Shown in pieces: positions 1,703 through 23,104 of a stretch of 23,809 nucleotides of DNA. How positions within the stretch are numbered: position 1 is the stretch's first letter; the number at the start of each line of letters is the position of its first letter. The position numbers and the translations under genes are program-made. The notes beneath the pieces were generated by a model. It did no database searches, had not been told where the DNA came from, and was given only the letters and a program-made list of their open reading frames with translations. The DNA comes from a virus: positions 1 through 23,809 of IMG/VR virus record IMGVR_UViG_3300021964_000537; one strand, written 5' to 3'.

Positions 1703-2131
1703 ATGAAAACAAATCTTGAAAAGAATATGGAAGAACTTCTGAATTTAGATAATAATATTGAACCTATATCAGAAATTATTTCTAATTCAAGAGAAATCGT
1801 TGAGAAACCACCATTACAGATATCAGAATCTGATATCATTATGGATGATTACGAATATGCTAGACAGAATCTAAAGAGCATTATCGAGTCAGCACAAACC
1901 TCTATTGAAGATTTATCATCTATCGCTTCTACTTCTGAGTCACCGAGAGCTTATGAAGTATTATCTACGTTAATGAAAACAATCGTAGATGCTAATAAAG
2001 ATTTACTCGAACTTCAGAAGAAGGTAAAACAACTGAAAGAAGAGAAATTAGATAAACCACAGAACGTTACAAATGCATTATATGTAGGGAATACCAGTGA
2101 ATTGATTAAGTTAATCAAAGGTAATACCTAA
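1703..2131 (+). CDS. 16: Terminase small subunit gp16
   Basis: Small terminase subunit, which forms a ring on DNA and regulates the ATPase and nuclease of gp17 during headful packaging. It is 142 aa (T4 gp16 is 164). After a poorly conserved, acidic N-terminus, residues about 48-115 form the helical core: DDYEYARQNLKSIIE, a Ser-rich turn (SSIASTSESPRAYEVL), then a long amphipathic helix ending LELQKKVKQLKEEK, which fits the central coiled coil of the family. No N-terminal HTH is obvious. The position directly before gp17 supports the call. The last base of its stop codon is also the first base of the 50-bp inverted repeat described separately. Confidence 0.85.
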   Translation: MKTNLEKNMEELLNLDNNIEPISEIISNSREIVEKPPLQISESDIIMDDYEYARQNLKSIIESAQTSIEDLSSIASTSESPRAYEVLSTLMKTIVDANKDLLELQKKVKQLKEEKLDKPQNVTNALYVGNTSELIKLIKGNT

Positions 2132-2180
2132 TTCAAAAGCGACATACGCATTATAACGTGAAAACAAAAAGAAGTAAATA
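2131..2180 (-). repeat. Inverted repeat copy A (50 bp, mate at 23055-23104)
   Basis: The reverse complement of this 50-base stretch matches 23055-23104 at 49 of 50 positions; the one difference lies in the spacer between the two promoter hexamers. The match starts on the last base of the gp16 stop codon and breaks off on both sides. On the minus strand it carries the same TTTACT-N17-TATAAT pair found upstream of uvsY. Confidence 0.95.
2150..2178 (-). promoter_or_regulatory. Leftward sigma70-like promoter inside repeat copy A
   Basis: On the minus strand TTTACT (2173-2178) and a perfect TATAAT (2150-2155) are separated by 17 bases. Transcription would start near 2143 and run leftward, antisense to gp16, gp15 and gp14. 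All visible genes run rightward, so this promoter has no sense gene within the window. The hexamers are seen in the sequence; activity is inferred. Confidence 0.5.
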
Positions 2181-2257
2181 GATTTCACACCAACCGAAGA
2201 AAATAAGTTCAATATTGGTAAAGGGCAGTGGTTTATTTTTGGATCCACTAAAACATA

Positions 2258-3910
2258 ATGTCAGAGAACTACTTAGCAAATCCTAATTTAAAAAAGGCAC
2301 ATGTGCCGATTGAATGGACTGCGGAACAGGTTCAAGAACTGATTCGTTGTTCAAAGGACATGGCGTATTTCATTGAAAACTATGTTAAGATCGTCAATCT
2401 TGATCAAGGTTTGATACATTTTAAGATGTATCAATATCAAAAAGAAATGGTAAAGACGATTGATGAGAATCGTTTTACTGTAATTAAAACTTGTCGTCAG
2501 GCGGGTAAAACTACTACATCGGCAGCAATTATTCTTTGGCATGTACTTTTTAATGATAACTATAGTGTTGCAATTCTTGCAAATAAGTTGTCTACTGCTC
2601 GTGAGATTTTAGCAAGAGTTCAACGCGGATATGAATATTTACCGAAGTGGTTGCAACAGGGTGTGATTACTTGGAATAAAACGAATATTGAGTTAGAAAA
2701 CGGCAGCACGATTATCGCCGCATCAACTGCTTCCAGTGCTATCCGTGGTATGAGTATTTCATTACTATATCTCGATGAGTTTGCATTCGTACCTCGTAAT
2801 ATTCAGGAAGACTTCTTTACTTCAGTTTATCCTACTATTATTTCAGGTACAAAAACAAAAATCGTGATTACTTCAACTCCAAATGGTTTTGACTTATTCT
2901 ATAAGATATGGATAAACAGCGTTGAGAATCGAAATGAATATGCAAACTTTGAGGTTAACTGGGATGCAGTTCCAGGTCGCGATGAAGAGTGGAAACAAAA
3001 AACAATTTCAAACACGAGTGAAGATCAGTTTCGTCAGGAGTTCGAGGCTGAGTTTATTGGTTCAGCACATACTCTAATATCACCAACTATTTTAAGAACA
3101 CTTGCTTTCATTAATCCTATTCATACTTCTTATGGTGGCAATCTTAGAATATACAAAGAACCTGTAAAGGATCATCATTATTTTTGCGTGGTTGATACTT
3201 CAAGAGGTTCAGGAATTGATGCATCTGCTTTCGTAGTTGTTGATACAAGTACAGCACCATATGAGGTCGTCGCTGCTTATACTGATAATCTAATTGCTCC
3301 TCTTTTATATCCTGAAGTAATTCATAATGTTGTTAGGTCTTTTAACAATGCATCTGTTCTCATTGAAATTAATGATAATGGTCAACAAATAGCAGATATT
3401 CTACATTTTGATTTAGAGTATGAAAATGTGATCTTTACTGCAGTGAAAGGTCGTGCAGGTCAGGTTATTGGTGGCGGGTTCTCTAAAACCGTGCAGAAAG
3501 GAGTGAGAACTACAAAACAAGTAAAACGAATAGGTTGTGCGAACATTAAAACAATGATTGAGAAGTCACAGATACTATTACATGACTACCACGTTATCAA
3601 TGAGTTTTCTACTTTTATACAAAAGAACGCTTCATATGAGGCTGATGCGGGTGCCCATGATGATTTAGTAATGTGTCTAGTTCTTTTTGCGTGGTCTACA
3701 AACCAAGAGTTCTTCAAAGAGATCACAGACACTAATTTTCGTAAGAGATTATTGGATAATCGTGATCAAATGCTCTCAGATGATGTTTTACCATTCGGAT
3801 TTATCGATGATGGAAGTGAAATTGAAAATGTAATAAATAATTCAAACATGTCCAGCCAAGGTGAGATTTGGAATGGTTTAGATGGTAGTAACAAATGGAA
3901 TGACTGGTGA
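2258..3910 (+). CDS. 17: Terminase large subunit gp17 (packaging ATPase-nuclease)
   Basis: DNA-packaging motor and headful nuclease. It is 550 aa; T4 gp17 is 610 and has an N-terminal extension absent here. ATPase domain: Walker A CRQAGKTT (residues 79-86), Walker B ending LLYLDE (D173/E174), and coupling motif TSTPNG (about 205-210). RNase H-fold nuclease: acidic residues in VVDTSRG (D313), LIEIND (E370) and HDDLVM (D468/D469), matching the T4 catalytic triad in order and spacing. The start at 2258 is fixed by an in-frame stop at 2249, leaving no other ATG upstream. No clear Shine-Dalgarno precedes it; a weak hairpin (AGTGG 2227-2231 with CCACT 2245-2249) lies just upstream. No late-promoter octamer is seen in the 126-base gap before it. 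Confidence 0.97.
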   Translation: MSENYLANPNLKKAHVPIEWTAEQVQELIRCSKDMAYFIENYVKIVNLDQGLIHFKMYQYQKEMVKTIDENRFTVIKTCRQAGKTTTSAAIILWHVLFNDNYSVAILANKLSTAREILARVQRGYEYLPKWLQQGVITWNKTNIELENGSTIIAASTASSAIRGMSISLLYLDEFAFVPRNIQEDFFTSVYPTIISGTKTKIVITSTPNGFDLFYKIWINSVENRNEYANFEVNWDAVPGRDEEWKQKTISNTSEDQFRQEFEAEFIGSAHTLISPTILRTLAFINPIHTSYGGNLRIYKEPVKDHHYFCVVDTSRGSGIDASAFVVVDTSTAPYEVVAAYTDNLIAPLLYPEVIHNVVRSFNNASVLIEINDNGQQIADILHFDLEYENVIFTAVKGRAGQVIGGGFSKTVQKGVRTTKQVKRIGCANIKTMIEKSQILLHDYHVINEFSTFIQKNASYEADAGAHDDLVMCLVLFAWSTNQEFFKEITDTNFRKRLLDNRDQMLSDDVLPFGFIDDGSEIENVINNSNMSSQGEIWNGLDGSNKWNDW

Positions 3911-3928
3911 TCTATAAGTTCATCAAAT

Positions 3929-3936
3929 TATAAATA
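3929..3936 (+). promoter_or_regulatory. T4-type late promoter upstream of gp18
   Basis: Exact TATAAATA, 42 bases before the gp18 start. In T4 this octamer is bound by the late sigma gp55. An AAGGAG ribosome site follows at 3966-3971. Confidence 0.85.
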
Positions 3937-3978
3937 AAAAAGAATTTGATAAAAAACAATCTGACAAGGAGATAAAAG

Positions 3979-5975: not shown

Positions 5976-6527
5976 ATGGCATTTAACATTAACGAATTTC
6001 AAGGAGCAATGATCGGCGGCGGCGCTAGACCTTCACTCTTTGAAGTTACGATGACGAATCCTTTTAACAGCGCGTCCGACGACAAGTTTCGTTTTATGTG
6101 CAGAGCAGCACAGATTCCTGGAACTAACGTTACTCCGATCAATGTTTTATACTTTGGTCGCGCAGTAAAGTTTGCAGGAAATCGCACCTTTGAGGATTGG
6201 ACAACAACAATAATTAATGATGAGGATTTCGCAGTTCGTGCAGGATTAGAAGAGTGGGTACAAAATATTAACTCAACAGAAGGCAACGTTCGTCTTACTG
6301 GTGCTAATCCTGAAGCCTATAAGTCACAGGCTCAGGTAAGACATTATGGTAAAGAGGGTGCAGTTCTTCGTGAGTATAAGTTTGTTGGATTGTTCCCAAC
6401 TGTTGTAAGCCCAATCGATCTAGACTGGACAGCAACAGACGCAATCGAAGAGTATCAGGTAACGTGGACATACGATTACTTTACTGTTGATACAGCTTCT
6501 TCGTTTGGTATTGCAATCAACACATAA
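5976..6527 (+). CDS. 19: Tail tube protein gp19
   Basis: Inner tail-tube subunit. It is 183 aa (T4 gp19 is 163). Typical features are FEVTMTNPF near the N-terminus, FMCRAAQIPGTNVTPI (about residues 42-57), the GRAVKFAGNRTFEDWTTTI strand pair, and a C-terminal EEYQVTWTYDYFTV. It follows sheath gp18 as in T4 and is followed at once by an intrinsic terminator. The gp3-position gene at 22518-23051 appears to share the same fold. Confidence 0.95.
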   Translation: MAFNINEFQGAMIGGGARPSLFEVTMTNPFNSASDDKFRFMCRAAQIPGTNVTPINVLYFGRAVKFAGNRTFEDWTTTIINDEDFAVRAGLEEWVQNINSTEGNVRLTGANPEAYKSQAQVRHYGKEGAVLREYKFVGLFPTVVSPIDLDWTATDAIEEYQVTWTYDYFTVDTASSFGIAINT

Positions 6528-6544
6528 AGATAACTATCTTTGCG

Positions 6545-6575
6545 AAAAAAAAGGGGGCTTTGGTCCCCTTTTTTT
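6545..6575 (+). terminator. Intrinsic terminator after gp19
   Basis: GGGG (6553-6556) pairs with CCCC (6565-6568), extended by a run of A before and a run of T after; the inner part closes as C(TTTG)G. The flanking A and T runs make it plausible on both strands. It starts 17 bases after the gp19 stop. Confidence 0.85.
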
Positions 6576-6588
6576 GTTTCAGTTCTAT

Positions 6589-6596
6589 TATAAATA
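6589..6596 (+). promoter_or_regulatory. T4-type late promoter upstream of gp20
   Basis: Exact TATAAATA just after the gp19 terminator and 30 bases before the portal start, so portal transcription is reset independently of gp18-gp19. Confidence 0.85.
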
Positions 6597-6626
6597 ATAG
6601 CAAACATCAACCAAGGATTTATTATA

Positions 6627-8273
6627 ATGGCTGAACTTTTTGGATTCACTATCGCAAGAAAAAAAGAAGAGAAGGAACAAGAAAAAACTCCTTCTATTGT
6701 AGCACCTACAGTAGAAGATGGTTCGATTGAGATTGCTCCTGGTGGTGCTTACGGAACGTATGTTGACTTAGAAGGTAAAGCTAAAAACGAAGGCGAACTT
6801 GTCACAAAGTATCGTGAGATGTCAGTTCAACCAGAGTGCGATACCGCAATTCAAGATGTTGTAAACGAATCTATTGTTGTTGATGAACTTGAGGGTCCAG
6901 TCGAAATTAACATGGACAAACTCAAGCAACCAGAAAGTATTAAGAAAAAGATTATTGAGAATTTTCAAGATATTCTCAGAATGCTTGACTTTAACAACAA
7001 TGGTTATGATGTATTTCGTAAGTGGTATGTTGACGGCAGACTCTATTACAATATCGTAATTGATGAAAAAAATCCAAGATCAGGTATTAAATCTCTTCGA
7101 TATATTGATCCTCGTCGTATTCGAAAAGTTCGTGAAGCAATTAAAGAGAAAGATGCACGAACTGGTGCTACTCTTTACAAGGGTATGAATGAATATTACA
7201 TTTATAATCAGAAAGGTGTATCATCAACTGCTTCTGCTGGTCAAGGCACCAAGATTGCGAAAGATTCAATCTGTTACGTTCATTCTGGTCTGTTAGATTC
7301 GCGTAATCATCTTGTCTATTCTCATCTACACAAGGCAATCAAACCTCTGAATCAGCTTCGTATGCTTGAAGATGCCGTTGTTATCTATCGTCTCGCACGT
7401 GCACCAGAGCGTAGAATATTCTACATTGACGTTGGTAATCTTCCAAAAATGAAAGCTGAACAGTATCTTCGTGATATGATGGTAAAGCATAAGAATAAGT
7501 TAGTATATGATGCATCGACTGGTGAAGTGCGCGATGATCGCAGATATATGACAATGCTTGAAGATTTCTGGTTTGCTCGCCGTGAAGGTGGTCGTGGTAC
7601 AGAAGTTACTTCATTGCCCGGCGGTCAAAATCTAGGTGAGATGGAAGATGTTGATTATTTCCGTCGCAAACTTTATAAGTCTCTAAACGTTCCCGTGACT
7701 CGTATGGAGTCAGAGAATCAGTTTAATCTTGGACGTGCTTCAGAGATTACTCGTGATGAGTTAAAGTTTAATAAGTTCATTCAAAGACTTCGCAATCGGT
7801 TTTCAATTTTATTTGATGAACTCTTAGAAATTCAGTTAGCTCTCAAGGGTGTTGCAACTCGGTCTGAGTGGCAAGAAATGAAAGAATACATTTATTATGA
7901 TTTCATGGAAGACAATCACTTTAGCGAACTGAAGCAGTCTGAAGTTATGACTGAAAGACTTCGTATTTTGCAAGAAGTTGATTCGTTTGTGGGTAAGTAT
8001 TTTTCAACTGATTGGATTCGTAAGAATGTTCTGCATATGTCTGACCAGGACGTTCAACAAATTGAAAAAGAGATTGATGCTGAATCTAAAGAAGGTGAAG
8101 ATCTTGAAGGAGATGATCAAGAAGCTCCTGAACAACAACCTACAGCGAACACTGCGCCACCAGAACCTGCAGAAGAGTTTGAACCACCGAAAGAACTCAG
8201 CGATGAGGAGAAGAAACTAGTTGAAAGCATGACACGTTTCATGGATTCGATGGTTGACACAGACAAGGTGTAA
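6627..8273 (+). CDS. 20: Portal protein gp20
   Basis: Dodecameric portal vertex protein: the DNA entry channel, docking site for terminase and, later, the neck. It is 548 aa (T4 gp20 is 524). Conserved stretches include [21 protein letters not shown] near the start, the [14 protein letters not shown] region, [35 protein letters not shown] (about residues 260-280), the [22 protein letters not shown] segment, and SRMESE-type [17 protein letters not shown]. The last 70 residues are a Pro/Glu/Gln-rich acidic tail that is probably disordered. It is preceded by AAGGA, and its stop lies 2 bases before the next start. Confidence 0.96.
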
Positions 8274-8275
8274 TC

Positions 8276-9370
8276 ATGAAACCAACAGTTGATAATGCTA
8301 AACTGCTCACGACAGTTCTTGCAGTTATAAAGAAACAAGGTATTGAAATCAAAGAGGATTTAAGAGAAAATCTATACAAATCTTTGAATGAAATAGAAAT
8401 ACCTGCTGGAGAACAAGGTCTTCAAGGAGAAGTTGGACCACAAGGCGATCGTGGTTTAATCGGCGAGCAAGGTCCAATAGGTCCACAAGGTCCACAAGGC
8501 ATACAAGGCGAGAAGGGAGAAGTTGGTGATAGAGGCGAGCAAGGTGAACCCGGTTTACTCGGCGAGCAAGGACCACAGGGAGAACAAGGCGAGCAGGGTA
8601 TTCAAGGTCCGAAAGGCGAAAGAGGGTTCAAAGGCGAGAAAGGTGATAAAGGAGAAAAAGGTGATAGGGGTGATGTTGGACCTCAAGGCGTAAAGGGTGA
8701 ACAAGGTCCTATTGGCGCTCAAGGAGCAAAGGGCGACAAAGGTGGAAAGGGCGACGCTGGAAAAGATGGAAAAGATGGTAAGGATGGTAAGAAAGGACTA
8801 AAAGGCGATAAGGGTGCTCGTGGTGCGAAGGGAGAAAAAGGAGCGAAAGGCGACCGTGGACTTGCTGGTAAAGATGGAAAGGATGGATCTCCTGGCAAAG
8901 ACGCAGATGTAAAAAAAGCGTTAGTTAAGTTTGAGAAAGATTTTAATCAGTACAAAGCAAAACTCAATCAGCAACTATCGACAATGGGTGGTGGTGGTTC
9001 TACTAGAATACTAGACAATGATGATGTTGTATTTAATCGCCCAAGCCAGTTAGCAAATAATGACGTTTTGATATTTAATCATTCAATACAAAAGTTTACT
9101 TCATTAAATATTGTTGATGTAATCAATACAGTAAGGATACAACTAGAAGTGCAGTATGATAGATTAGTCGATGAAACTGCGGTAGGAGCCAACACATACA
9201 CATATGTGGGTGAGGCTACTCCTGGATCTTATGCAAACACAGCTTCGTGGAGAATTAAGAGAGTAGGAGAAGTCAGCGGTAATACAGTTACGACGATTCT
9301 TTGGGCGAATGACACTGATAATTTCGATAAAATTTGGGATGATAGAACTACTTATACATATGACGTATAA
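8276..9370 (+). CDS. Collagen-like phage structural protein
   Basis: A 364-aa fibrous protein. Residues 1-44 are a short helical head. Residues 45-209 are 55 uninterrupted Gly-X-Y triplets, rich in [12 protein letters not shown] and GDR, i.e. a charge-stabilised triple helix. Residues about 213-235 form a likely coiled coil ([19 protein letters not shown]), followed by a GGGG hinge and a C-terminal domain with the phage-type [22 protein letters not shown] motif. By analogy with other phage collagen-like proteins it is probably a trimeric head, neck or tail fibre; which one cannot be told. It starts 2 bases after the portal stop and so should be co-expressed with gp20. It is not part of the T4 gene set at this place. 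Confidence 0.85.
8408..8902 (+). repeat. Gly-X-Y triplet repeat tract (55 triplets)
   Basis: Coding repeat with 9-base periodicity, every third codon a glycine codon (GGA, GGC, GGT or GGG mixed). Short DNA repeats such as GGCGAGCAAGG recur near 8462, 8534 and 8561 and could allow length change by slippage or recombination. Confidence 0.9.
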
Positions 9371-9381
9371 TTATACTTTTT

Positions 9382-9389
9382 TATAAATA
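9382..9389 (+). promoter_or_regulatory. T4-type late promoter upstream of the 880-aa structural gene
   Basis: Exact TATAAATA, 39 bases before the start at 9429. Confidence 0.82.
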
Positions 9390-9428
9390 AAGTAAAGAAA
9401 AACTATTTTCTAGAAGGGGAAAATAAAA

Positions 9429-12071
9429 ATGGCTCTTATCATTGACCCAGATAATCTGTCCCAAGGGCAATCAAACACAAATAGTGGTGGAATCAATATT
9501 GCCGTCCCAAGTGGTAATACTGCTGTTACAATTGTTAACGCTTCATCTACCGCTCTACCATCGTTTTCAGTAAATGATTATTTTGAAATTAGAAATTCAT
9601 TGAGCGCTAATACAAATGGTCTATATTATGTAACAACTGTTGGTACACCAACGAATGGTTATACTGTTAATAAAGTTGGTGGCGCTCAAGGTTCGCCAAC
9701 AGCTGATGCTCGGGATGATGGTCTTGCTAATGCTGGTATTACATTCCTAGGAGCTGATACAAACGCCTTTACTCAAAAATCTGTTTACTTTGATACTTAT
9801 TCAAAGAAAATTTGGTTAATTCGTCAAGGAAATCTTGACGACGTTGGTGAGTCACAAACGAACGGTGTTACCCTTCAGTCTCTCTACTCTTTCACAAAGG
9901 AAGAATGGAAGACCGACGATCTACTTATCAAGTTTGACTTCCCATTTACTGCTATTACGCCAGAACAGTTCGAAGTTGGAACTGGTTGGAGATTTTATGA
10001 TGAAAATATCACAGACGGAACAACGAATCGTAAAACTCGCGAACTAGTTCGTACTGGAGGTTGGTCAGAAGTTAGCGAAGCTGGCGATTTACTTCAACAG
10101 TATTCGGGTATTATTACTCTAGGATCATTTGAAGACACTGCTGACTTTGCTCACGTTCAATTTGGCACTGACCCTGAAGATACTACAGCCGCTGATGACT
10201 TTGTGTTTTCTGGTCGTGTGAACGAAGCACTTCGCACCTTTGATGTCGCTTATAATCCTGATTTGGGTGGTCTACCAACTGTTAAGTTTACTGCAAACAC
10301 AATTCAAATTATCGGTGGTACTTCTAATAACTGGGTAACTTTAGGATTCAATCAAGGCGGTAGTCTTCGCGTTACTGCTGCTAATACAGCTGGAAATATT
10401 CAAACATCTTCAGTGTTAATCACTGATATTTCTACTACTACTGCTACAAACGATACAGTTAGCGTTACTGGTGCATCTACTTACACTGTAGAAAATGCTG
10501 ATACAGTTGCTGAAATTGCTTATGATAATCGTAGCGCTCTATCGCTTTTCTTAAGAGCAAATACGGCAGGTCCGGCGGCAACTACTCAATCAAAAGGATT
10601 CGACTCTTCAGACTTGGCAGCAATCGGTGTTACCACTCTTACAAACCAGGTTTATCGTTTCCCACTAACAAACGCATTAGATCCAAAAATCAGTCTTTCT
10701 GACAGTACTGTAACAAGTGGCGATTATCCTGAAATTAAAATTCGTTATTTTGCAGTTCCATTTCAACAAGACGTTGATACAGCAGGATCACCTAGAAACT
10801 TTGGTATCGTAATTGATGCTGGTACTTATTCATTCCCAGACGGTGTTTATGATTCAGGAAGCGATGCAAATACTATTACCACAGCAATTGCAGGTATTCC
10901 ATCATCTACATTTGATGGTGGTACATTAACAATTCATGAAGGTGCTGATAGTGGTAATTATACCGTCGATACAGCATCTGGTGGTACTATTAATATTTTA
11001 GGAGCGGCACCATTATCGGGTGGAAGTCTTACTAATCTTTCCATGACTCTGCAAAGAGCTACTAAAATTATTGACGGTACGAATGGTCCTACAATTGAAC
11101 AAATTTACAACCGTGTACAGTATCAATTAAGACAAGATACAAATATTAACGATACAAATAGCGGTAATACTGTAACAGGTTCAACTGCTGATGAGTTATT
11201 GTTCTTCGTTGGTGACGCGATTACGGCTGGTTCAACTACTTCACCTCCAGAAAATCCCGAAGGCGGTGGAACGGGTGTTGCTATGCTTGGATTTAATCCC
11301 AACGATACAAACGACGTTACGCTTGTAGATAATGGTGATACTGCTAGAAACTTCCCGTTCTTGTCTGCTGGTAACATCAATTTCAATTCAAACTTAGATG
11401 ACGATAATGATGCTAAGTTCTGGATGTTCTTTACTTACACTCATCAACGTACATTGACAAATGCTGATGTAGGGGTGCCATCTGGAAGAACCGCAGTAAT
11501 TACGTGTGATGCTGGTGCTGGTAATGATATTGTAATTGAAGATTTTACTCGTTATCAAGATCAAACTTGGTCCAATGCTCCAGCTCAAGATCAATTAGCA
11601 GTTGGACAATATATTCGTTTTTCAGAATGGACTAATAGTGAAAACAATGGTATTTGGAGAATTACTGCATATACTAGTGCTACATCGATTACTTGCGTAA
11701 AGGTAGATGGTGATGCGCCAGTCCAAGAAACAAACACAACTGGTGTAAAACTACAGGAAGATCCAATTGATTCACCTGATGCTATTATTGTAAATGACAA
11801 TAATGCCGCACAAATTGCTGGTTTAGCAAATACTGCATCTGTTGCGTTTGACTTCGACTTTACAAACAATAATCAGGGTAGTCGTGTTCCTTCAGCTAAT
11901 ACTTTACTTTGGCCAACAGTAACTACAGGTAATCCTGCCGCAGTTACCGTCCGTGCAATTGGTTTCAATACCGCGCAGTTCGTGGAAGTTAGTTCAACCA
12001 TTACAAGAGCAACTGGTCAGAGCATCTCTGTGGTGTCTGGTCTTGAAAGAAACTACTCTAACCCAGTATAA
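9429..12071 (+). CDS. Large virion structural/adhesin-like protein (880 aa)
   Basis: A beta-rich, Thr/Asn/Ser/Gly-rich protein with very few Cys, typical of phage fibres or surface proteins. The segment around residues 165-260 (FDFPFTAITPEQFEVGTGWRF, then TRELVRTGGWSEVSEAGDLL and YSGIITLGSFED) resembles a structural-protein family I associate with environmental tailed phages; exact function unknown. Residues about 22-95 and 680-765 look like two copies of one domain: both begin VPSG(N/R)TAV, and both contain a hydrophobic-G/N-(D/Q)-Y-(F/I) strand followed by an N-x-NG turn. The C-terminus ends ERNYSNPV, closely like that of the 593-aa protein two genes downstream. It has its own late promoter, so a late virion protein is likely. 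Confidence 0.7.
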   Translation: MALIIDPDNLSQGQSNTNSGGINIAVPSGNTAVTIVNASSTALPSFSVNDYFEIRNSLSANTNGLYYVTTVGTPTNGYTVNKVGGAQGSPTADARDDGLANAGITFLGADTNAFTQKSVYFDTYSKKIWLIRQGNLDDVGESQTNGVTLQSLYSFTKEEWKTDDLLIKFDFPFTAITPEQFEVGTGWRFYDENITDGTTNRKTRELVRTGGWSEVSEAGDLLQQYSGIITLGSFEDTADFAHVQFGTDPEDTTAADDFVFSGRVNEALRTFDVAYNPDLGGLPTVKFTANTIQIIGGTSNNWVTLGFNQGGSLRVTAANTAGNIQTSSVLITDISTTTATNDTVSVTGASTYTVENADTVAEIAYDNRSALSLFLRANTAGPAATTQSKGFDSSDLAAIGVTTLTNQVYRFPLTNALDPKISLSDSTVTSGDYPEIKIRYFAVPFQQDVDTAGSPRNFGIVIDAGTYSFPDGVYDSGSDANTITTAIAGIPSSTFDGGTLTIHEGADSGNYTVDTASGGTINILGAAPLSGGSLTNLSMTLQRATKIIDGTNGPTIEQIYNRVQYQLRQDTNINDTNSGNTVTGSTADELLFFVGDAITAGSTTSPPENPEGGGTGVAMLGFNPNDTNDVTLVDNGDTARNFPFLSAGNINFNSNLDDDNDAKFWMFFTYTHQRTLTNADVGVPSGRTAVITCDAGAGNDIVIEDFTRYQDQTWSNAPAQDQLAVGQYIRFSEWTNSENNGIWRITAYTSATSITCVKVDGDAPVQETNTTGVKLQEDPIDSPDAIIVNDNNAAQIAGLANTASVAFDFDFTNNNQGSRVPSANTLLWPTVTTGNPAAVTVRAIGFNTAQFVEVSSTITRATGQSISVVSGLERNYSNPV

Positions 12072-12085
12072 TGAAAAGGTAGATA

Positions 12086-12289
12086 ATGAATATATCATTA
12101 GAACAAGCAGGTGAAGTTCTTGGCAAAACTTCAGATGAGATGATGTTTTTAGTACAGTCAAAAAAAATCCAGGCAGGGGTGGACCAAGACACCCTTGTTT
12201 GGACTTTTCAACTTGAAGATGTTTTGAAGTTAAAGAAAGAGTTAGAAGAAGAAACTTTACAAGAGGGTCAACAGTTTTTGTCTGAATAA
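12086..12289 (+). CDS. Small excisionase/MerR-like HTH protein
   Basis: A 67-aa protein with the layout of the HTH_17/excisionase winged-helix family: helix 1 ISLEQAGEVLG (residues 3-13), a turn and recognition helix KTSDEMMFLVQSKKIQAG, a short beta wing (TLVWTFQLEDVLKLK, where W39-F41 fills the usual hydrophobic wing positions), and a helical acidic tail KKELEEETLQEGQQF. Such domains bind DNA as transcription or recombination-directionality factors. The basic residues expected in the wing are mostly absent, so it could be a protein-binding derivative. It lies 14 bases after the 880-aa gene with an AAGG site, inside a block of structural genes. Function unknown; fold assignment from pattern only. 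Confidence 0.55.
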   Translation: MNISLEQAGEVLGKTSDEMMFLVQSKKIQAGVDQDTLVWTFQLEDVLKLKKELEEETLQEGQQFLSE

Positions 12290-12295
12290 TACATT

Positions 12296-12808
12296 ATGAG
12301 AAATTGTGGTGAATGTAATGTGTGTTGTGTAGTGCCCGAGATGACAGTGGCAGATCATGGTTTTTCTAAAAAATCATTTGTGAGATGCCCGAAACTATCA
12401 GGTATAATTTCTGACAAACAATGCACAATTTATAAAGATCGTCCGACTAAATGTTCGCAATTTACTTGTTTGTGGATAAAAGGATTTGGTAATGAAAACG
12501 ATCGACCAGACAAAAACAATTTGTTATTATTTAAGAATAGAATTAATAATGGTAATTGGATTTTTGCGATTGAGACAAAAGAAGATAGTATATTAAAGAA
12601 CAAAGAGATTTTAATCGAAGTTTCTAAAAAAAGTGATACTGCAATTATTATACAGAAGTTCAATTCTAAAAAGATTGCTGGTGATGAAACTGTATTAAAA
12701 AATTCATTGGTTTCAAAAGCCAAACAGATGATGGGAGAGTTTCTTCGCTGGATAGATGAGGATAAAGAAATTGGGTTGTACAAACTTTATAATCCTGCGG
12801 AGAAATAA
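12296..12808 (+). CDS. CxxCxxCC cysteine-cluster protein (YkgJ/UPF0153-like)
   Basis: A 170-aa protein with the N-terminal signature C4-x2-C7-x2-C10-C11, then C31, and C43-TIYKDRP-TKC53-x4-C58-LW. This matches the CxxCxxCC (YkgJ-type) family thought to bind a metal or Fe-S cluster and related to part of the flagellin lysine methylase FliB. All eight expected cysteines are present. The C-terminal half (about 75-170) is Lys/Ile/Asn-rich and unrecognised. No good Shine-Dalgarno is seen; the start is 6 bases after the previous stop, so coupled translation is likely. The next gene starts 2 bases after its stop. The role is unknown; a modifying or redox role toward the neighbouring fibre proteins is speculation. 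Confidence 0.7.
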   Translation: MRNCGECNVCCVVPEMTVADHGFSKKSFVRCPKLSGIISDKQCTIYKDRPTKCSQFTCLWIKGFGNENDRPDKNNLLLFKNRINNGNWIFAIETKEDSILKNKEILIEVSKKSDTAIIIQKFNSKKIAGDETVLKNSLVSKAKQMMGEFLRWIDEDKEIGLYKLYNPAEK

Positions 12809-12810
12809 AA

Positions 12811-14592
12811 ATGGCTGATCCCATCTTAGTCGAACTCGATGGTACTCGGGTAAATGATGCTGATACAGGCGGTACACCATGGGGTAACTGGACAAATTCT
12901 GGTGGCTCGGCTGGTGGTGCTGCTGTTTCTGCAGAACCTCAGCTAGCATATCAAGGAACAAACGCAGTAAATAAAAAAGTTACAGCAACTACTGACCGAG
13001 AAGGAGTGGATATTGATCCATTTGGAGCATCAGTAGATGTTACTACAGCAAATAATGCTCTATTTTTTTTCAAATTAAATGTTACAGATTCATTCGATTT
13101 GAACTCAACTTGGGGAGTTCAAATCGACATAGGTAATTTGGATACCCAGGTTTATCAATATAACGTATCTGGATCAGGAGCAAAACGACCAATTTTTGAA
13201 TCTTATGTCGCACAAAGTGGATATTTAATTGGACAAATTAATCCCACTGTTGCTGAATGGAGAGATGGTACTGTTGGTACTGTAACTGAAACTGCTATTG
13301 ATTTCTTAGCATTTGGGATGCAAACAATTAATGGCGCAACGAAGGATGTTAACTTCGCTGTAGATTCTGTTGATTTTGGTCGAGGATTAAGATGTCGTGG
13401 AGGTGGTCTCGATGGAGCATCTACTGGGTTAATTTCTTTCGGAGATTTTCTATCATCTGACCAGGAAACTCGTGCAAACCGTTGGGGAGTTGTCACTGGT
13501 TCTGGTAATTCATTGCAAGCTCGTGGTATGTTGGCCATTGGTCACGAATCGGGTGGCGGTGTAGCACAATCAAATACTCGTTTCCAAGATACAGAATCAA
13601 TTATCACATTCCTTGATGGTTACCATGCATCAAATAATGTTGGTGTAATCGTATATAATGCAAACACAAATGATTCTGTAACAATCAGTTCACTCTTTAT
13701 TGGTGGCGGCGCAAACACAGAAAATGCTGTACCATCTTCTCGAGACACAAGACCAGATTTCACAGTTGTTGGTACAGCTAATACTGTTGGTGTAAATTTA
13801 ACCAGCGCTACTTTCCGAAATTTTAGAAATATTAATTTAAATAGTTCTGTTACAGTTGATGGTTGTACGTTTACATGCGAAAAACTAAAACCAGGTAATG
13901 TAACAGTAGGAAACTGTTCAATTACAGATACATCTATTTTTACTACTGGACCAGCAGCAAATGCTACGGTAGAATTATTCCCAGATAATAATTCCAATAT
14001 TATTAATAACACAAATTTTTTTCAAGATGGGTTGGGGCATGCTGTTGAACTTGCAACAGTTGGTGGAACATATAACTTTGATAATTTATCATTTACTGAT
14101 TATAATGCATCAAACAATCAAAACGATTCTGCGCTTTGGGTTTCAGCTGGATCTGGCACAACCACAATCAATTTAAACAATGGTTCTGCTCAACCTTCAT
14201 TTAGAACTGCTGGTGCCACCGTAACTTTCGTTTCTTCTGTTTCGGTTACAGTAACAAATATGATAGCAAACACTGAACTTCGCATTTACAACACAGCATT
14301 ATCTGAATCAGACGCAAATTATCAAATTGCAGGCGTTGAAGATGTATCAAAAGCTACTGGAGATACAAGTGAAGAAAATGGTACAGCTTCCGGACCTGAT
14401 GGGAATGGAAGATATAGTTTCAATTTTTCGACCAGTCAAAACGTTAACTTGAAACTTAGATTTATCAATACTGCGTTTGTAGATAGTGCATACTGGATTG
14501 CGGATGATATTTCAGTAAATTCAGGAACAGATGCTACGCTATCGATTCAGGCGGCGCAACGAAGAGATAGAGTGTTTAGTAATCCTGTTTAG
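12811..14592 (+). CDS. Virion structural/adhesin-like protein (593 aa)
   Basis: A beta-rich, Asn/Thr/Gly-rich protein. Residues about 1-190 look like a jelly-roll or lectin-type domain (LFFFKLNVTDSFD, GVQIDIGN, TAIDFLAFGMQTING). Residues about 270-440 show short hydrophobic strands with turns of the kind seen in parallel beta-helices (NVGVNLTSATFRNFRNINLN, SVTVDGCTFTCEKL, TVGNCSITDTSIF, GTYNFDNLSFTDYN). The end is a beta-sandwich-like segment finishing RDRVFSNPV, almost the same as the end of the 880-aa protein. Probably a fibre, tailspike or surface adhesin. It is preceded by GGAG and tightly coupled to the cysteine-cluster gene. The fold is inferred from pattern only. Confidence 0.65.
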   Translation: MADPILVELDGTRVNDADTGGTPWGNWTNSGGSAGGAAVSAEPQLAYQGTNAVNKKVTATTDREGVDIDPFGASVDVTTANNALFFFKLNVTDSFDLNSTWGVQIDIGNLDTQVYQYNVSGSGAKRPIFESYVAQSGYLIGQINPTVAEWRDGTVGTVTETAIDFLAFGMQTINGATKDVNFAVDSVDFGRGLRCRGGGLDGASTGLISFGDFLSSDQETRANRWGVVTGSGNSLQARGMLAIGHESGGGVAQSNTRFQDTESIITFLDGYHASNNVGVIVYNANTNDSVTISSLFIGGGANTENAVPSSRDTRPDFTVVGTANTVGVNLTSATFRNFRNINLNSSVTVDGCTFTCEKLKPGNVTVGNCSITDTSIFTTGPAANATVELFPDNNSNIINNTNFFQDGLGHAVELATVGGTYNFDNLSFTDYNASNNQNDSALWVSAGSGTTTINLNNGSAQPSFRTAGATVTFVSSVSVTVTNMIANTELRIYNTALSESDANYQIAGVEDVSKATGDTSEENGTASGPDGNGRYSFNFSTSQNVNLKLRFINTAFVDSAYWIADDISVNSGTDATLSIQAAQRRDRVFSNPV

Positions 14593-14595
14593 TAT

Positions 14596-14603
14596 TATAA
14601 ATA
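14596..14603 (+). promoter_or_regulatory. T4-type late promoter upstream of the 818-aa structural gene
   Basis: Exact TATAAATA 3 bases after the previous stop and 32 bases before the start at 14636; an AGGAG ribosome site lies between. Confidence 0.83.
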
Positions 14604-14635
14604 TAAAAAACGAATTTCATTAGGAGAATAGTTAA

Positions 14636-17092
14636 ATGGCTGGTGATCGTAAATATACCAGAATTCCTCCAGAAAGCACTGGCGATAGAATACTCTTAGT
14701 TCATACACAAGAAGTTCCATTCGATAACCTACAGGGTGGTCATGTTTGGAAACGAGGTGAACAGTATACAATCACTGGCAACGGTGGTGCTACCATTACC
14801 ATAACACTTCATAAAGCTGTTATTGCTGCTGGTGGTACTTCAGGATTCTTGGTATATGAAATTGAAGAAGATGAAAACTATCTGAATTCTCCTGATGTAA
14901 TCGACAATCAAGAAATTCGTTTAGGTGGTTCCGGTGGAACATTAGTTGCTTATTCGAGCGGAACTTCTTATTGCGTTTATGTAAACGGTCAAGCGATTAT
15001 CGGTAAGGATAATTCTACATACGCGGCGAACGTTGATCGTTTCGGTGCCTTGTATAGCAGATTTTCTGAAGGTGCACCAGAAATTTCTAGTTTTGGTAAG
15101 TTACGTGTTACTGAACCAAAACTTTTAGCACAATATGATTTTACAAAATCAGCGCTGAAAGACGAATTTGTAAACTCTCAAGAACAATTAGGAAATTCTA
15201 CTTGGCAACCAGACATTGGCGCAATAAAACTTACTGTGAGCGGCGATAATACTGTTGACCGAGTTACGAACACTTCAAACTTATTTCACCCAGTAGTTCC
15301 TGGTTCTGGTATTCTTTTTGTATTCGCTGCTAGATCAGATAGCGTAACTCAAGGTGTGATTCGCAACTGGGGTGCATTTGATGCTACTGATGGTTATTTG
15401 TTTCAACAAAACGGAACAAAGTTAAGAGTAGTTCATAGATATACGCTTGATGGTAATGCTACTGCTAACATGCCAATAGAACAAGCAGACTGGAATCGAG
15501 ATACACTAGACGGAACTTTCAGTGCTCAAAATCCAAGCGGTATGAATTTAGATATACAAAAAATTAATTTATACTGGGTTGACTATCAGTTTTACGGTGG
15601 CGGGAGAACACGTTGGGGTGTTTTTTATCAGGGTGAACGTATTGTTTGTCATGAGATGCGTCATGGAAATGGAGAAGAGGGCAACGTAGGTCTTACAAAT
15701 CCAATCGGTAATCCAAATCGTCCATTATGTTGGGCAATAGCAAATAGAGTGGATGCTGATTCAGCAAGTCCAGATGGTTCAGAAGCAAACTTCTGGGTTT
15801 TTGGTGGTGCTGTTTATTTAGAAGCTAGCGTAGATCCATTAGCTGAATCGAATATTCGTGGTTATCGAAATAATAATTTTGTATTACCCGCAACGAGTAC
15901 GAGTACAACTTATGCATTTACTTTAAGTCCAGCGCAGTATTATCCAGAAGCATTTGTTCAGGATACTTCTGCGGGAGGTTCTTTTACATTATCAGGCGGT
16001 CAATTAGAAAACCATTCAATCTATTCTCCTCAAATATTAAATGTCGCATCGTATAATCAGTTAGATGATGACGTTGATAGAAAAGTTGAGATACGTATGT
16101 TTCAAAAATGTATCATGCGTGGATTAAACTATAACCCTGTAAGTTTCAGTAGTGTTGAAGTTGATACGGATGGTGATCACTTAGCTCACGGACCTGAGTT
16201 TGCAAGGTTTGTTGTTGATGGCGATAAAGATTTCAATTTCTTTGATCTCTTTAAAACGATTCAAAACGGTGCAGTAAAAAATAATAGTGACCAAGCATTT
16301 GCAAGAAATTCACAACCAATTACTACTTTTTATGAAGGCGCAGATCCAGAACTAACTGGTGTAAAACGTATCGTAGTAAAGATAAAGAGTCATCCGATTT
16401 TTGGAACTAACATTCACTTTTTTAATGACAAAAATAAAGTGGTGTTTAGAGACACAACGAATGTCACGGACCCAGAAGTTTTATTAGGATTCAATAATCA
16501 AGGTACGTTGAAAACAGCAAACACCACATCTACAGATTGGCATTATCTATCTTTTATTGATAGAGATGAAGCGTGGATTTATAATAGCACTGCAAACATT
16601 GATGATGATAGAAATGCCAGAGTGATAAACATAACCGGAAACAAAATGATTACAGCAGGTCTAGCGGTTGGAGATAGAATAACTTTAACAGGTACTGGTG
16701 GTAGTTCAGGACAAGATGGTACTGCATATGTACTTGAAGTCGCAGGTGGCGGCGGCGCTAATACTGTTACTTTACAAGGTAGAGACGCTACGTATTTAGA
16801 CGCTGGTTGGGTTGGTACTGCAAATAATACATCAACTGATTCGGATCCAGTATCATCAATTACTACACTCGGTGTTGGAACTTATCCACTTGATTATAAA
16901 ACATCGCTACTCGCGTTAGCGAATACTGATGTGGGTATTACGTTGTCTGGTAATACGATTACAGATCAAAACTCTTTATATGGTCCTCCACCAGCACGAG
17001 TTGCTTGGACATTTATGGTACGCCATCTAAGAGCAAAATCTTCTAACACTTTAGTTCGTTGGGCTATGACTTGGAAAGAACGCGTCCAGTAA
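14636..17092 (+). CDS. Large virion structural protein (818 aa)
   Basis: An unnamed structural protein. Residues about 1-145 form a compact N-terminal region ending GALYSRFSEGAPEISSFGKL, a motif I associate with marine myovirus virion proteins. Residues about 155-400 look like a concanavalin-type beta-sandwich (ALKDEFVNSQEQL, GILFVFAARSD, VDYQFYGGGRTRWGVFYQGE, VCHEMRHGN). A later stretch, about residues 655-725 (VINITGNKMITAGLAVGDRI and VTLQGRDATYLDAGW), resembles the repeated domain of the 880-aa protein. The C-terminus (FMVRHLRAKSSNTLVRWAM) is aromatic/basic. Probably a fibre, tailspike or head-surface component. It is behind its own late promoter and followed after one base by the 214-aa gene. 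Confidence 0.65.
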   Translation: MAGDRKYTRIPPESTGDRILLVHTQEVPFDNLQGGHVWKRGEQYTITGNGGATITITLHKAVIAAGGTSGFLVYEIEEDENYLNSPDVIDNQEIRLGGSGGTLVAYSSGTSYCVYVNGQAIIGKDNSTYAANVDRFGALYSRFSEGAPEISSFGKLRVTEPKLLAQYDFTKSALKDEFVNSQEQLGNSTWQPDIGAIKLTVSGDNTVDRVTNTSNLFHPVVPGSGILFVFAARSDSVTQGVIRNWGAFDATDGYLFQQNGTKLRVVHRYTLDGNATANMPIEQADWNRDTLDGTFSAQNPSGMNLDIQKINLYWVDYQFYGGGRTRWGVFYQGERIVCHEMRHGNGEEGNVGLTNPIGNPNRPLCWAIANRVDADSASPDGSEANFWVFGGAVYLEASVDPLAESNIRGYRNNNFVLPATSTSTTYAFTLSPAQYYPEAFVQDTSAGGSFTLSGGQLENHSIYSPQILNVASYNQLDDDVDRKVEIRMFQKCIMRGLNYNPVSFSSVEVDTDGDHLAHGPEFARFVVDGDKDFNFFDLFKTIQNGAVKNNSDQAFARNSQPITTFYEGADPELTGVKRIVVKIKSHPIFGTNIHFFNDKNKVVFRDTTNVTDPEVLLGFNNQGTLKTANTTSTDWHYLSFIDRDEAWIYNSTANIDDDRNARVINITGNKMITAGLAVGDRITLTGTGGSSGQDGTAYVLEVAGGGGANTVTLQGRDATYLDAGWVGTANNTSTDSDPVSSITTLGVGTYPLDYKTSLLALANTDVGITLSGNTITDQNSLYGPPPARVAWTFMVRHLRAKSSNTLVRWAMTWKERVQ

Positions 17093-17093
17093 A

Positions 17094-17738
17094 ATGTTAA
17101 CGTTTAATTATAACAATTGGCAGTTTTGGGAAGCATATAATCCTCCAGATTATCTAGGACCACAAAAAGTAACTTTTGATGGTTTAGCAAGATTAATTCT
17201 TGTGAACGAAAACGTAACTACGTTGAATTTTCAAGAAGACGTATATTCAGGGTGGAAAGAGTGGGTTAAAGATCCTACACAAGATAATGGTAAATGGGCT
17301 GAAGCAATATCAGCTGTTGGTGGTGACCCTCTCCCTGGAGATAGAACTCTTGGTTCTACTTTCTTCCTAGAAAACGATTGGAAAATGAGAACATGGGAAG
17401 GCGACCACGAAATAACCGTGTTTGGAAACGTCTTTACTCGTACTGGAGAATCGATATTTGTAAGAACTATTGATAAGTGGAACATCGTGATTAACTTGAA
17501 CACGTCTACTCTCGTGGAAACTGCCACTGTTGCTCTAGGTCCTGCGGCTGTAGAACAGATCGTTTCTGGTGTCTGGGCAGAAAGTCTTTCCGGAACTACT
17601 GCTGGCACTAGATTAATTAACGTTGATGATATACCTCAAAATGTTTGGGATTATATCATTGACAGCGGTAGAGCACAATCAGCAGGTGATAAACTGAAAA
17701 AAGTTGCTACGAAGACGCAAGACATTGCCTTTAAGTAA
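17094..17738 (+). CDS. Phage structural protein of unknown function (214 aa)
   Basis: I do not know a named function. Residues about 25-125 have the pattern FDGLARLILVNENVTTLN, then YSGWKEWV, then AISAVGGDPLPGDRTLGSTF followed by WKMRTWEGDHEITVFGN. I recognise this as a family seen in structural blocks of diverse environmental tailed phages. The last 60 residues (EQIVSGVWAE, QNVWDYIIDS) look helical and may be an attachment or oligomerisation tail. The start lies one base after the 818-aa stop, so the two are probably translated together and may form one appendage. No Shine-Dalgarno stands out before it. Confidence 0.6.
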   Translation: MLTFNYNNWQFWEAYNPPDYLGPQKVTFDGLARLILVNENVTTLNFQEDVYSGWKEWVKDPTQDNGKWAEAISAVGGDPLPGDRTLGSTFFLENDWKMRTWEGDHEITVFGNVFTRTGESIFVRTIDKWNIVINLNTSTLVETATVALGPAAVEQIVSGVWAESLSGTTAGTRLINVDDIPQNVWDYIIDSGRAQSAGDKLKKVATKTQDIAFK

Positions 17739-17746
17739 TCAATTTT

Positions 17747-17754
17747 TATAAATA
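17747..17754 (+). promoter_or_regulatory. T4-type late promoter upstream of gp67
   Basis: Exact TATAAATA 24 bases before the gp67 start; AAGGAG follows. Confidence 0.85.
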
Positions 17755-17778
17755 ATATAGAATTAAGGAGAATACATA

Positions 17779-18000
17779 ATGTCAGAAACTGAACAGAATA
17801 CAATCCGCGACGCTGTTCTTGCGTTACAAAATGGCGAATCAGGAGCATTCAAAGACGCAATCGCTGCTTCCCTTATGGATAAAGCAATGGACGCGATTAA
17901 TGTTCAAAGAATTGGCGCTGCTCAATCTCTATTCGCAGAACCTGAAATTTCTCCAGAAGAAAACACCGAACCAGAGGAAGTAGCTGATGAAGAAGTTTAA
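17779..18000 (+). CDS. 67: Prohead core protein gp67-like
   Basis: A 73-aa small core protein. The N-terminal half (NTIRDAVLALQNGESGAFKD, then SLMDKAMDAINVQR) is the recognisable gp67-type helical core, and the last 20 residues are strongly acidic (SPEENTEPEEVADEEV) as in T4 gp67 (80 aa). In T4 it is part of the inner scaffold and is cut by gp21 after assembly. The call fits its place upstream of gp21-gp22-gp23. Its 3' end overlaps the next gene by 14 bases in a different frame, implying coupled translation. Confidence 0.8.
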   Translation: MSETEQNTIRDAVLALQNGESGAFKDAIAASLMDKAMDAINVQRIGAAQSLFAEPEISPEENTEPEEVADEEV

Positions 18001-18571
18001 GAATTTATTTGAGTCAGTAGGTTCTCCAGCCACTGATTCAAAAGTAAAGGAAGATGACGAAGAAGAAGTCAAAGGTTATAAGCCTCGTTCTAAGGGTGAA
18101 GAGGATTTTGTAAACCAGCATAAAGTAGTGAAGAAGGAACATCCAGTCGCTGAACCTCATCAACACACTGGTGATCGCAAGGGTCCAAAGAGTGACTCTG
18201 GCGAAGACCATGAAGGTTTTGAAAAGAAGGGCGAACCAGTTCTAAAAACGTATGATCAGTTTAAGAAAATGGGTGGCTGGGGTTCTTCTTCAAAGCGCGG
18301 ACCAGATAAGACTGCTGGTGACACAAAGGCTGTGATGCAGGGTTCTTCTAAGATTAAAGAAGAAGTTGAGATTATTGATGAAGCATTTAAAGCAGGTACT
18401 GTTAAACTTAAAGATGGTAGTACTGTAAAGGTTAACGAAGCAACAGCAAAAGTTCTCAACAATGCTTTGAGTCAATTGAGCGCATCTAATAAAAAGCGAA
18501 TGGAAGCGGAAGCGATGAAGAACAAGAGTTCTTTTGAGTCGATGGTCAAGTTCGCAAAAGCTACAGTGTAG
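17987..18571 (+). CDS. Prohead-core-region protein in gp68 position (194 aa)
   Basis: It occupies the place of T4 gp68 (141 aa) but is longer, and I do not see clear sequence proof of homology. Residues 1-130 are highly charged and probably disordered: acidic (KEDDEEEVKG), then Lys/His/Gly-rich (EHPVAEPHQHTGDRKGPKSD). The C-terminal 70 residues look folded: KLKDGSTVKVNEATAKVLNN followed by a basic helix SNKKRMEAEAMKNKSSFESM. A scaffold/core protein to be cleaved by gp21 is the likeliest role. It overlaps the gp67 gene by 14 bases. Confidence 0.55.
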   Translation: MKKFKNLFESVGSPATDSKVKEDDEEEVKGYKPRSKGEEDFVNQHKVVKKEHPVAEPHQHTGDRKGPKSDSGEDHEGFEKKGEPVLKTYDQFKKMGGWGSSSKRGPDKTAGDTKAVMQGSSKIKEEVEIIDEAFKAGTVKLKDGSTVKVNEATAKVLNNALSQLSASNKKRMEAEAMKNKSSFESMVKFAKATV

Positions 18572-18971: not shown

Positions 18972-18972
18972 A

Positions 18973-19626: not shown

Positions 19627-19639
19627 AAGATGTGTTTTT

Positions 19640-19647: not shown

Positions 19648-19686
19648 ATACTAAATTGAATACTTGTTAACAAGGAGAAATAACAG

Positions 19687-20778: not shown

Positions 20779-20784
20779 AATTAT

Positions 20785-20792
20785 TATAAATA
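20785..20792 (+). promoter_or_regulatory. T4-type late promoter upstream of gp23
   Basis: Exact TATAAATA 42 bases before the major capsid start, with a strong AAGGAG ribosome site between. Confidence 0.88.
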
Positions 20793-20834
20793 ACATGAAC
20801 AAGGCTGAAAAACATTAGTAAGGAGAAAAAACAA

Positions 20835-22208: not shown

Positions 22209-22210
22209 TA

Positions 22211-22224
22211 ACGATAATAATCGT
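22211..22224 (+). other. Short hairpin after gp23 stop
   Basis: A perfect 5-bp stem (ACGAT / ATCGT) with an AATA loop just downstream of the stop codon. It may protect the 3' end of the gp23 mRNA; the stem is weak. Confidence 0.4.
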
Positions 22225-22236
22225 TAGGTTGAAATT

Positions 22237-22264
22237 AGAGGGGGCTTCGGTCCCCTCTTTTTTT
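22237..22264 (+). terminator. Strong intrinsic terminator after gp23
   Basis: Stem AGAGGGG with CCCCTCT (22237-22243 / 22252-22258), extended by a G-T pair and closed by a C(TTCG)G tetraloop at 22245-22250, followed by a T run to 22264. The UUCG loop makes it very stable. Confidence 0.92.
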
Positions 22265-22276
22265 ATTTTCTAAACA

Positions 22277-22284
22277 TATAAATA
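22277..22284 (+). promoter_or_regulatory. T4-type late promoter 4 bases before the 81-aa gene
   Basis: Exact TATAAATA directly after the gp23 terminator. With T4-like geometry the start of transcription would be near 22290, inside or beside the first ATG of the next gene. Confidence 0.8.
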
Positions 22285-22288
22285 GTAT

Positions 22289-22534
22289 ATGATGTGGATT
22301 AGAAAACATATAGTAACGCTTGACGTTTTATACTACATGCCAGATTACTCTGAAATTGTTCAAGAGTTTATTTGGCAAACGAATGATATTACTCCAGAAT
22401 TACCAAAAGTACATAAGTTTTTAAATTACTGGAAGAATAACATCGAAGCGGTTATCAAAGAAGTAAAGGTTAGTTATACAGAATATAATGATTTCAACGT
22501 CATCAGAGAGATAAAATATGGCATTAGACACTAA
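22289..22534 (+). CDS. Small conserved-type protein between gp23 and gp3 positions (81 aa)
   Basis: No named function. It begins MMWIRKHIVTLDVLYYMPDY; the MW-basic-hydrophobic-D start resembles a short uncharacterised protein at the same place in T4-like cyanophages (from memory, not checked). It is rich in Trp, Tyr and Lys. Either ATG at 22289 or 22292 can serve; no Shine-Dalgarno precedes them, and the late promoter is so close that the message could be leaderless. The 3' end overlaps the next gene by 17 bases in another frame, which argues that it is translated and coupled to that gene. Confidence 0.65.
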   Translation: MMWIRKHIVTLDVLYYMPDYSEIVQEFIWQTNDITPELPKVHKFLNYWKNNIEAVIKEVKVSYTEYNDFNVIREIKYGIRH

Positions 22535-23051
22535 CATCAGCGTACTCTTAGACGACGCTAATCTTACAACAAACATAAACTTTCTATCGCCATTAGGTTT
22601 TAGATTTCAGTTAACACGAGCACCGAACGTCGAGTATTTCTGTCAATCTGCAACATTACCTACAATCTCTATGGTTGAGATTTTACAACCTAATCCTCTT
22701 GCTCAGTTAACAAGACCAGGAGATAGGATTACCTATGAACCATTCAGCATTCGGTTTCGTGTAGACGAAGAAATGAAAAATTATCTCGAAATCCACAACT
22801 GGATTATTGGATTAGGACATCCCGACAATTTAAATCAATACAAAACTTTGAATCAAGGAGCAGGAATCTATTCCGACGGATCTCTTGTAATTCTTTCTTC
22901 TAATAACAATCCCAAGGTTCGTATTGGTTTTGAAAACTTATTTCCGCTATCTCTCTCGCCACTTACCTTTGATACCACGCAAACAGACATCGAGTATCTG
23001 GAAGCCGAAGTTACTTTCAGATATCGTAAATTTACAGTAGAAGTTCTATAA
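22518..23051 (+). CDS. 3: Tail-tube-fold tail protein in gp3 position
   Basis: A 177-aa protein at the place where marine T4-like phages carry gp3, the tail completion/tube terminator (T4 gp3 is 176 aa). The sequence parallels gp19 in this window: FRFQLTRAPN... FCQSATLPTISM against FEVTMTNPF... FMCRAAQIPGTNV; PGDRITYEPFSIRFRVDEEM against the GNRTFEDWTTTIINDEDF region; and a shared end D-x-EY-x-E-x-VTF-x-Y-x-x-F-V. It therefore probably has the tail-tube fold and caps or extends the tube. The gp3 symbol rests on position and size; another tube-like protein such as gp54 or gp48 is possible. GAGAGA lies before the ATG. Confidence 0.7.
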   Translation: MALDTNISVLLDDANLTTNINFLSPLGFRFQLTRAPNVEYFCQSATLPTISMVEILQPNPLAQLTRPGDRITYEPFSIRFRVDEEMKNYLEIHNWIIGLGHPDNLNQYKTLNQGAGIYSDGSLVILSSNNNPKVRIGFENLFPLSLSPLTFDTTQTDIEYLEAEVTFRYRKFTVEVL

Positions 23052-23054
23052 AAG

Positions 23055-23104
23055 TATTTACTTCTTTTTGTTTACACGTTATAATGCGTATGTCGCTTTT
23101 GAAT
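23055..23104 (+). repeat. Inverted repeat copy B (50 bp, mate at 2131-2180)
   Basis: Matches the reverse complement of 2131-2180 at 49 of 50 positions. It fills most of the 65-base gap between the gp3-position gene and uvsY and contains the whole uvsY promoter. Confidence 0.95.
23057..23085 (+). promoter_or_regulatory. Sigma70-like promoter of uvsY
   Basis: TTTACT (23057-23062), 17-base spacer, perfect TATAAT (23080-23085). Transcription would begin near 23092, about 25 bases before the uvsY ATG. No late octamer is present here, so uvsY would be expressed by host-type sigma70, earlier than the structural genes. Confidence 0.7.

Follow-up and report, generated by a model that had tools for sequence, protein, structure and literature searches.

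What is the function of two nearly identical sequences that lie in opposite orientations at the ends of a 21-kilobase (kb) block of head and tail genes in a T4-type phage? The repeats are found in the IMG/VR record IMGVR_UViG_3300021964_000537, a linear fragment of 23,809 bases; the window analysed here is this entire record, and counts given for this phage cover the fragment only. The closest isolates by gp17 protein are members of the Kyanoviridae (among them cyanophages, the Methylophilales phage Melnitz and the Pelagibacter phage Mosig), every one with less than 60% identity. The larger open reading frames (ORFs) are all on the plus strand, in the order gp14, gp15, gp16, copy 1 of the repeat, gp17 ... 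gp23, gp3, copy 2, uvsY and uvsW. The repeated 50-mer, which reads TATTTACTTCTTTTTGTTTACACGTTATAATGCGTATGTCGCTTTTGAAT in the direction of copy 2, is probably a host-sigma-70 promoter of the T4 early type with a conserved first transcribed stretch (TGTCGCTTTTGAAT). The best explanation as a whole, namely a promoter pair, an early antisense role and homogenisation of the copies, is given a probability of about 0.72 as one reading. These elements may bear on the start of replication and the restraint of late genes in T4-type phages outside the enterobacteria, both of them little understood.

A preliminary description of the locus had reported a 50-base-pair inverted repeat too long to have arisen by chance, and both statements were confirmed. 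Positions 2131-2180 and 23055-23104 are reverse complements with 49 of 50 positions identical; longer arms (2131-2185 and 23050-23104) extend over 55 nucleotides (nt) at 95% identity, and BLAST of the record against itself matched the arms with an E value of 2.8e-20. Chance is therefore excluded. The copies had also been placed in intergenic gaps right after stop codons. Both are intergenic; more exactly, arm 1 starts at the final base of the gp16 stop codon, and arm 2 starts 3 nt past the gp3 stop (ORF end 23051). The antisense orientation of copy 1, and the identity of copy 2 as the uvsY promoter, had been missed.

Both copies contain a -35 hexamer TTTACT, a 17-nt spacer and a perfect -10 hexamer TATAAT, followed 7 nt on by GTCGC (within TGTCGC) as the predicted start. 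These elements are located at 2178-2173, 2155-2150 and 2143-2139 in copy 1 (minus strand), and at 23057-23062, 23080-23085 and 23092-23096 in copy 2 (plus strand). The sole mismatch between the arms (2161 and 23074) falls inside the spacer. Hexamers 16-18 nt apart are characteristic of T4-type early promoters, and the promoter reading is also supported by T4 itself, which has five exact TTTACTT-N-TATAAT promoters, on a single strand only. The two copies resemble the sigma-70 early promoters of T4 in the TTTACTT -35, the TATAAT -10 and the 17-nt spacing; whereas the conserved GTCGC start is an addition here, and one copy is antisense within the late region. Both promoters would be active early through the unmodified host RNA polymerase. 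No Rfam families were found in the window.

Copy 2 (23055-23104) lies in the sense orientation directly upstream of uvsY-uvsW, with 12 nt between its end and the uvsY start codon, as expected of a promoter of early genes; copy 1 is instead antisense to gp16. The left neighbour of copy 2 is the gp3-position gene of the tail-tube/completion family (22518-23051, plus strand; PHROG 45, E 4.8e-41). The recombination mediator gene uvsY (23117-23554, plus strand; PHROG 231, E 2.7e-40) is predicted to be driven by copy 2, which would transcribe both uvsY and the helicase gene uvsW; only the 5' part of uvsW (23601-23809, plus strand) is present before the end of the record, and the gene is complete in the contig L004. 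When 2.9 million viral contigs were searched with a 22-mer, L003 and L004 were recovered, each with copy 2 between gp3 and uvsY. A further TTTACT-17-TATAAT promoter spans the end of uvsY (23537-23565), which suggests that uvsW has an early-type promoter of its own. The T4 uvsW gene is transcribed from a late promoter.

Copy 1 (2131-2180) is on the minus strand and points into gp16 from the 3' end of that gene, antisense to every nearby gene. The small terminase gene gp16 (1703-2131, plus strand; PHROG 445, E 2.9e-32) is the template of the predicted antisense transcript, and the large terminase gene gp17 (2258-3910, plus strand) is the neighbour upstream with respect to the promoter direction. 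No ORF of at least 60 amino acids (aa) starting within 1 kb of the antisense start was found on this transcript. Copy 1 would thus yield a non-coding RNA running back through gp16 and, unless terminated, through gp15 and gp14. An orthologous antisense element lies between gp16 and the following gene in L005 and L045, which come from two samples; these copy 1 orthologs and the copy 2 orthologs of L003 and L004 are separate assemblies. On the minus strand of L005 (1578-2198), opposite to the late genes and about 4 kb downstream of the antisense promoter, there is also a 206-aa ORF, apparently a 2-oxoglutarate-Fe(II) oxygenase/hydroxylase.

Loci of more diverged relatives (L006-L011 and L016) were collected by gp17 similarity alone, and promoter sequence was not used. 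In L007-L011, with gp17 70-71% identical, the gp16/gp17 gap contains the antisense promoter TTGACTTTTT...GATATAATAGC.TTGTCGC; in L006 it contains TTGACTTTTT...GTTATAATAGTGCTTGTAGCGC, also antisense, and L016 has a close variant (gp17 75-76% identical in these two). The -35, the -10 and TGTCGC/TGTAGC are thus kept antisense in this gap among relatives with 70-76% gp17 identity, whereas the spacers and flanks have diverged. In a footprint of 11 aligned sequences that included the gp16/gp17 gaps of the relatives, the invariant positions were the TT of the -35, TATAAT, TGT.GC and the next TTT; the spacer and flanks vary. Because the relatives keep these elements in place, the predicted antisense promoter site at gp16/gp17 is old.

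The repeat also gives the sense gp16-gp17 mRNA a segment, AUUCAAAAGCGAC, with perfect complementarity to the first 13 nt of the uvsY mRNA, by which it might regulate uvsY in trans. This complementarity is a consequence of the repeat; L005 and L003, which are from the same sample, have not retained the pairing, and the conservation is centred on the -35 and -10, outside the uvsY mRNA. Regulation in trans is very improbable.

The preferred reading assigns copy 1 a role in the timing of late transcription. Between the copies there are nine matches to the late-promoter sequence TATAAATA, against 1.8 expected, all on the plus strand between 3929 and 22284 (starts 3929, 5941, 6589, 9382, 14596, 17747, 19640, 20785 and 22277); none of 100 shuffles reached nine. 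Until the switch, transcription sent back across the late promoters from an early promoter would counteract late transcription. Moreover, among 23 antisense elements of the class described below, eight have TATTTATA, a late promoter read backwards, no more than 100 nt downstream, against 0.33 expected. Conditional on the promoter reading, it is slightly less than an even bet that copy 1 serves chiefly for early antisense transcription, which may hold the late genes off, or separate operons, until the late switch. A weaker antisense TTTACT-15-TATAAT without GTCGC is also found at 9370-9428 (minus strand), over the TATAAATA late promoter of the next gene.

The main alternative is that the promoters serve as transcription-primed (R-loop) replication origins, in which a short early RNA stays hybridised and primes the leading strand. 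The T4 model for this is ori(uvsY)/oriF, and antisense copies inside late regions would then be comparable to T4 oriE. In T4, oriF consists of the uvsY promoter and an A+T-rich unwinding element, an early promoter is required by oriE, and late-transcribed regions are where most early synthesis begins (PMC3016281). Copy 2, at the uvsY promoter, is in the position of oriF, and an early promoter inside a late-transcribed region is oriE-like; a promoter that is antisense and non-coding, yet has a conserved first transcribed stretch, would also have to serve something besides mRNA production. The first 100 nt downstream of the copies have an A+T content of 70% and 68% (8th and 15th percentile of window GC), but this richness is modest. 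Neither the third-position skew nor the GC skew helps, as the former gives no clean origin signal and the latter no clear switch in the window. The T4 origins have no common sequence motif, whereas the present elements share GTCGC. In addition, the oriF promoter is a middle (MotA) promoter, whereas copy 2 has a full sigma-70 -35; an oriE-like early promoter is still compatible with this. An origin role, proposed here from sequence, is considered unlikely, though far from negligible.

The promoter pair might belong to a wider class. The pattern TTTACTT-N-TATAAT-N-GTCGC was found in 48 viral stretches, compared with 21 for a control with the permuted pentamer CGCTG; the corresponding numbers for TTGACTT-N-TATAAT-N-GTCGC were 94 and 30. 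Matches that are intergenic and antisense to both neighbours accounted for 49 of 130 with GTCGC and 0 of 51 with the permuted pentamer (14 of 48 versus 0 of 26 families, p = 0.0014). Among intergenic oriented promoters in the fetched loci, the ratio of antisense to sense families was 22/12 with GTCGC and 9/61 without it (p = 1.4e-7), a comparison of supportive weight only, since the two sets were gathered differently. The antisense members share a weak extension, YTTTRARG, which is not seen in sense or coding matches. They recur in the gap between the uvsW side and gp55 (L051, L055, L072, L084, L153 and L159) and in the gap before gp25 (L053, L074, L149, L179 and L196); further sites are at gp4/gp2 (L173), near a gp3-like gene (L165) and at gp16/gp17. 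In the isolates HTVC008M and Mosig, the gp55 gap also contains strong antisense promoters that lack the exact GTCGC.

The preliminary description had considered an element shared by the early promoters of the genome. This was correct in that both copies are promoters of the early type; however, a plain genome-wide consensus was rejected. In a 63-kb fragment of a related phage, here called phage B (G013/G024), about 15 ordinary sense promoters lack GTCGC and only the antisense sites have it, and the records searched contain at most one ACTT-N-TATAAT-N-GTCGC match each. A 20-mer of the element had no exact match in the genome_contigs collection, which was searched for a host origin. A 5' hairpin as a common feature of the class was likewise rejected, because the antisense members fold no better than shuffles (mean z 0.01, 22 families); one sense group does fold better (mean z -1.26). 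These sense GTCGC promoters of other phages (L050, L061, L076, L166, L182 and L155) have a 5'-terminal RNA hairpin GUCGC...GYGAC, stabler than shuffles, and form a group distinct from the antisense members.

The recurrence at few gaps, often in the wrong direction, suggests that the putative antisense early promoters are conserved rather than accidental. As a tentative proposal, with the odds somewhat against it in its full form, T4-type marine phages share a class of antisense early promoters with GUCGC starts (often GUCGCYUUURA) in fixed gaps before gp55, gp25, gp17 and gp2, which act as replication origins or as antisense gates of late operons, and whose copies are homogenised within a genome. 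Judged from a non-exhaustive literature search, the class is apparently undescribed. Backward promoters at fixed places in many T4-like phages could be a regulatory or replication signal, and a recognisable sequence class at a few recurrent gaps, often pointing backwards, offers defined and testable coordinates.

The near-identity of the two copies might be explained by recombination. The gp16 genes of the window and L005 are 93.7% identical. Five sites separate copy 1 of the window from its ortholog in L005, and in window copy 1 each of them carries the base of copy 2; at the single site where the window copies differ, copy 1 agrees with L005. Copies of the same genome are thus closer to each other than to their orthologs, a pattern that ectopic conversion would leave, and they were probably homogenised by recombination. 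In L005, a 385-aa class I S-adenosylmethionine methyltransferase gene (6395-7552; Pfam Methyltransf_25, E 1.8e-20) lies between the element and gp17. The window retains roughly its final 23 codons (2187-2257, plus strand), with a deletion junction at about 2182-2187 that abuts the edge of the repeat arm. This predicted methyltransferase gene is inserted between gp16 and gp17 in close relatives, and has been lost from the window save for the remnant. A recent ectopic recombination or conversion would account for the near-identity, and the same event may also have removed the methyltransferase gene beside copy 1. Phage B has an element of its own in duplicate; these two copies point the same way and share 85% identity over 75 nt. 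Within-genome duplication has therefore occurred at least twice.

An assembly or amplification chimera of copy 1 and copy 2 could also produce part of this pattern, since among the contigs found only this record has the copy-2-like sequence and the deletion junction, and a search of genome contigs for the junction 24-mer gave no match. However, at the mismatch copy 1 has a base of its own rather than that of copy 2, and an orthologous antisense element is at the same place in L005, L045 and the diverged relatives. A chimera could account only for the near-identity and the deletion, not for the element, and is improbable even for these; as an explanation of the whole finding it was rejected, as each site is also present in other samples.

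The preliminary description had further raised two recombinational explanations. One was the promoter-early stem-loop (PeSL), although no stem-loop had been visible to it. A PeSL is a mobile regulatory cassette, dispersed from gap to gap by recombination and able to rearrange genes; such promoter-stem-loop cassettes were reportedly described in T4-type phages by Arbiol in 2010 and Comeau in 2014, as cited in PMC4503421. The near-identical copies in different gaps, the gain or loss of the methyltransferase gene beside copy 1 and the paired elements of phage B would all suit a cassette of this kind. The likeness is in the repeated early-promoter modules between genes, whereas the present elements are inverted with one antisense, keep their position, are flanked by essential genes and lack a stem-loop; PeSLs reportedly come from non-essential gene regions. 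The idea fails on the defining stem-loop, as no terminator-like structure was found near either copy (2050-2320 and 22980-23200). The antisense orientation of copy 1 and its kept position in relatives indicate that it is not freely mobile, and a PeSL-type cassette is distinctly unlikely. The other explanation was a site of recombination or inversion by which the 21-kb block, neatly flanked by the inverted repeats, would be flipped. No inverted gp16-gp3 junction was seen among the contigs with either site: L003, L004, L005 and L045, four independent contigs, are all uninverted. The gene order is the standard T4 type, no recombinase was found among the annotated larger ORFs of the 23.8-kb window, and the copies in phage B share one orientation. 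Inversion is hardly credible.

Several points weigh against the combination of promoter pair, antisense role and homogenisation. The more distant L012 and L013 have no element at gp16/gp17, and in T4 the two genes overlap, so that no gap is left for one. In relatives with 79-83% identical uvsY, the promoter was not found directly before uvsY; in L144-L146 a promoter lies about 360 nt upstream instead. The gap of copy 1 itself contains no TATAAATA, and the link to late promoters is therefore not directly applicable to this site. The wider class was found through its own GTCGC motif with one permuted control, and its families are not phylogenetically independent. The case for homogenisation comes from few sites in one assembly, where both the resemblance of copy 1 to copy 2 and the deletion junction are found, and the direction of conversion is not polarised by the outgroups compared.

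Inside the block between the copies, gp20 and the gp21 protease are separated by some 10 kb (8276-18571) of genes that are collagen/tail-fibre-like, virion-structural or unknown, including products of 880, 593 and 818 aa. In the annotated relatives Melnitz, Mosig and S-PM2, gp20 and gp21 lie close together.

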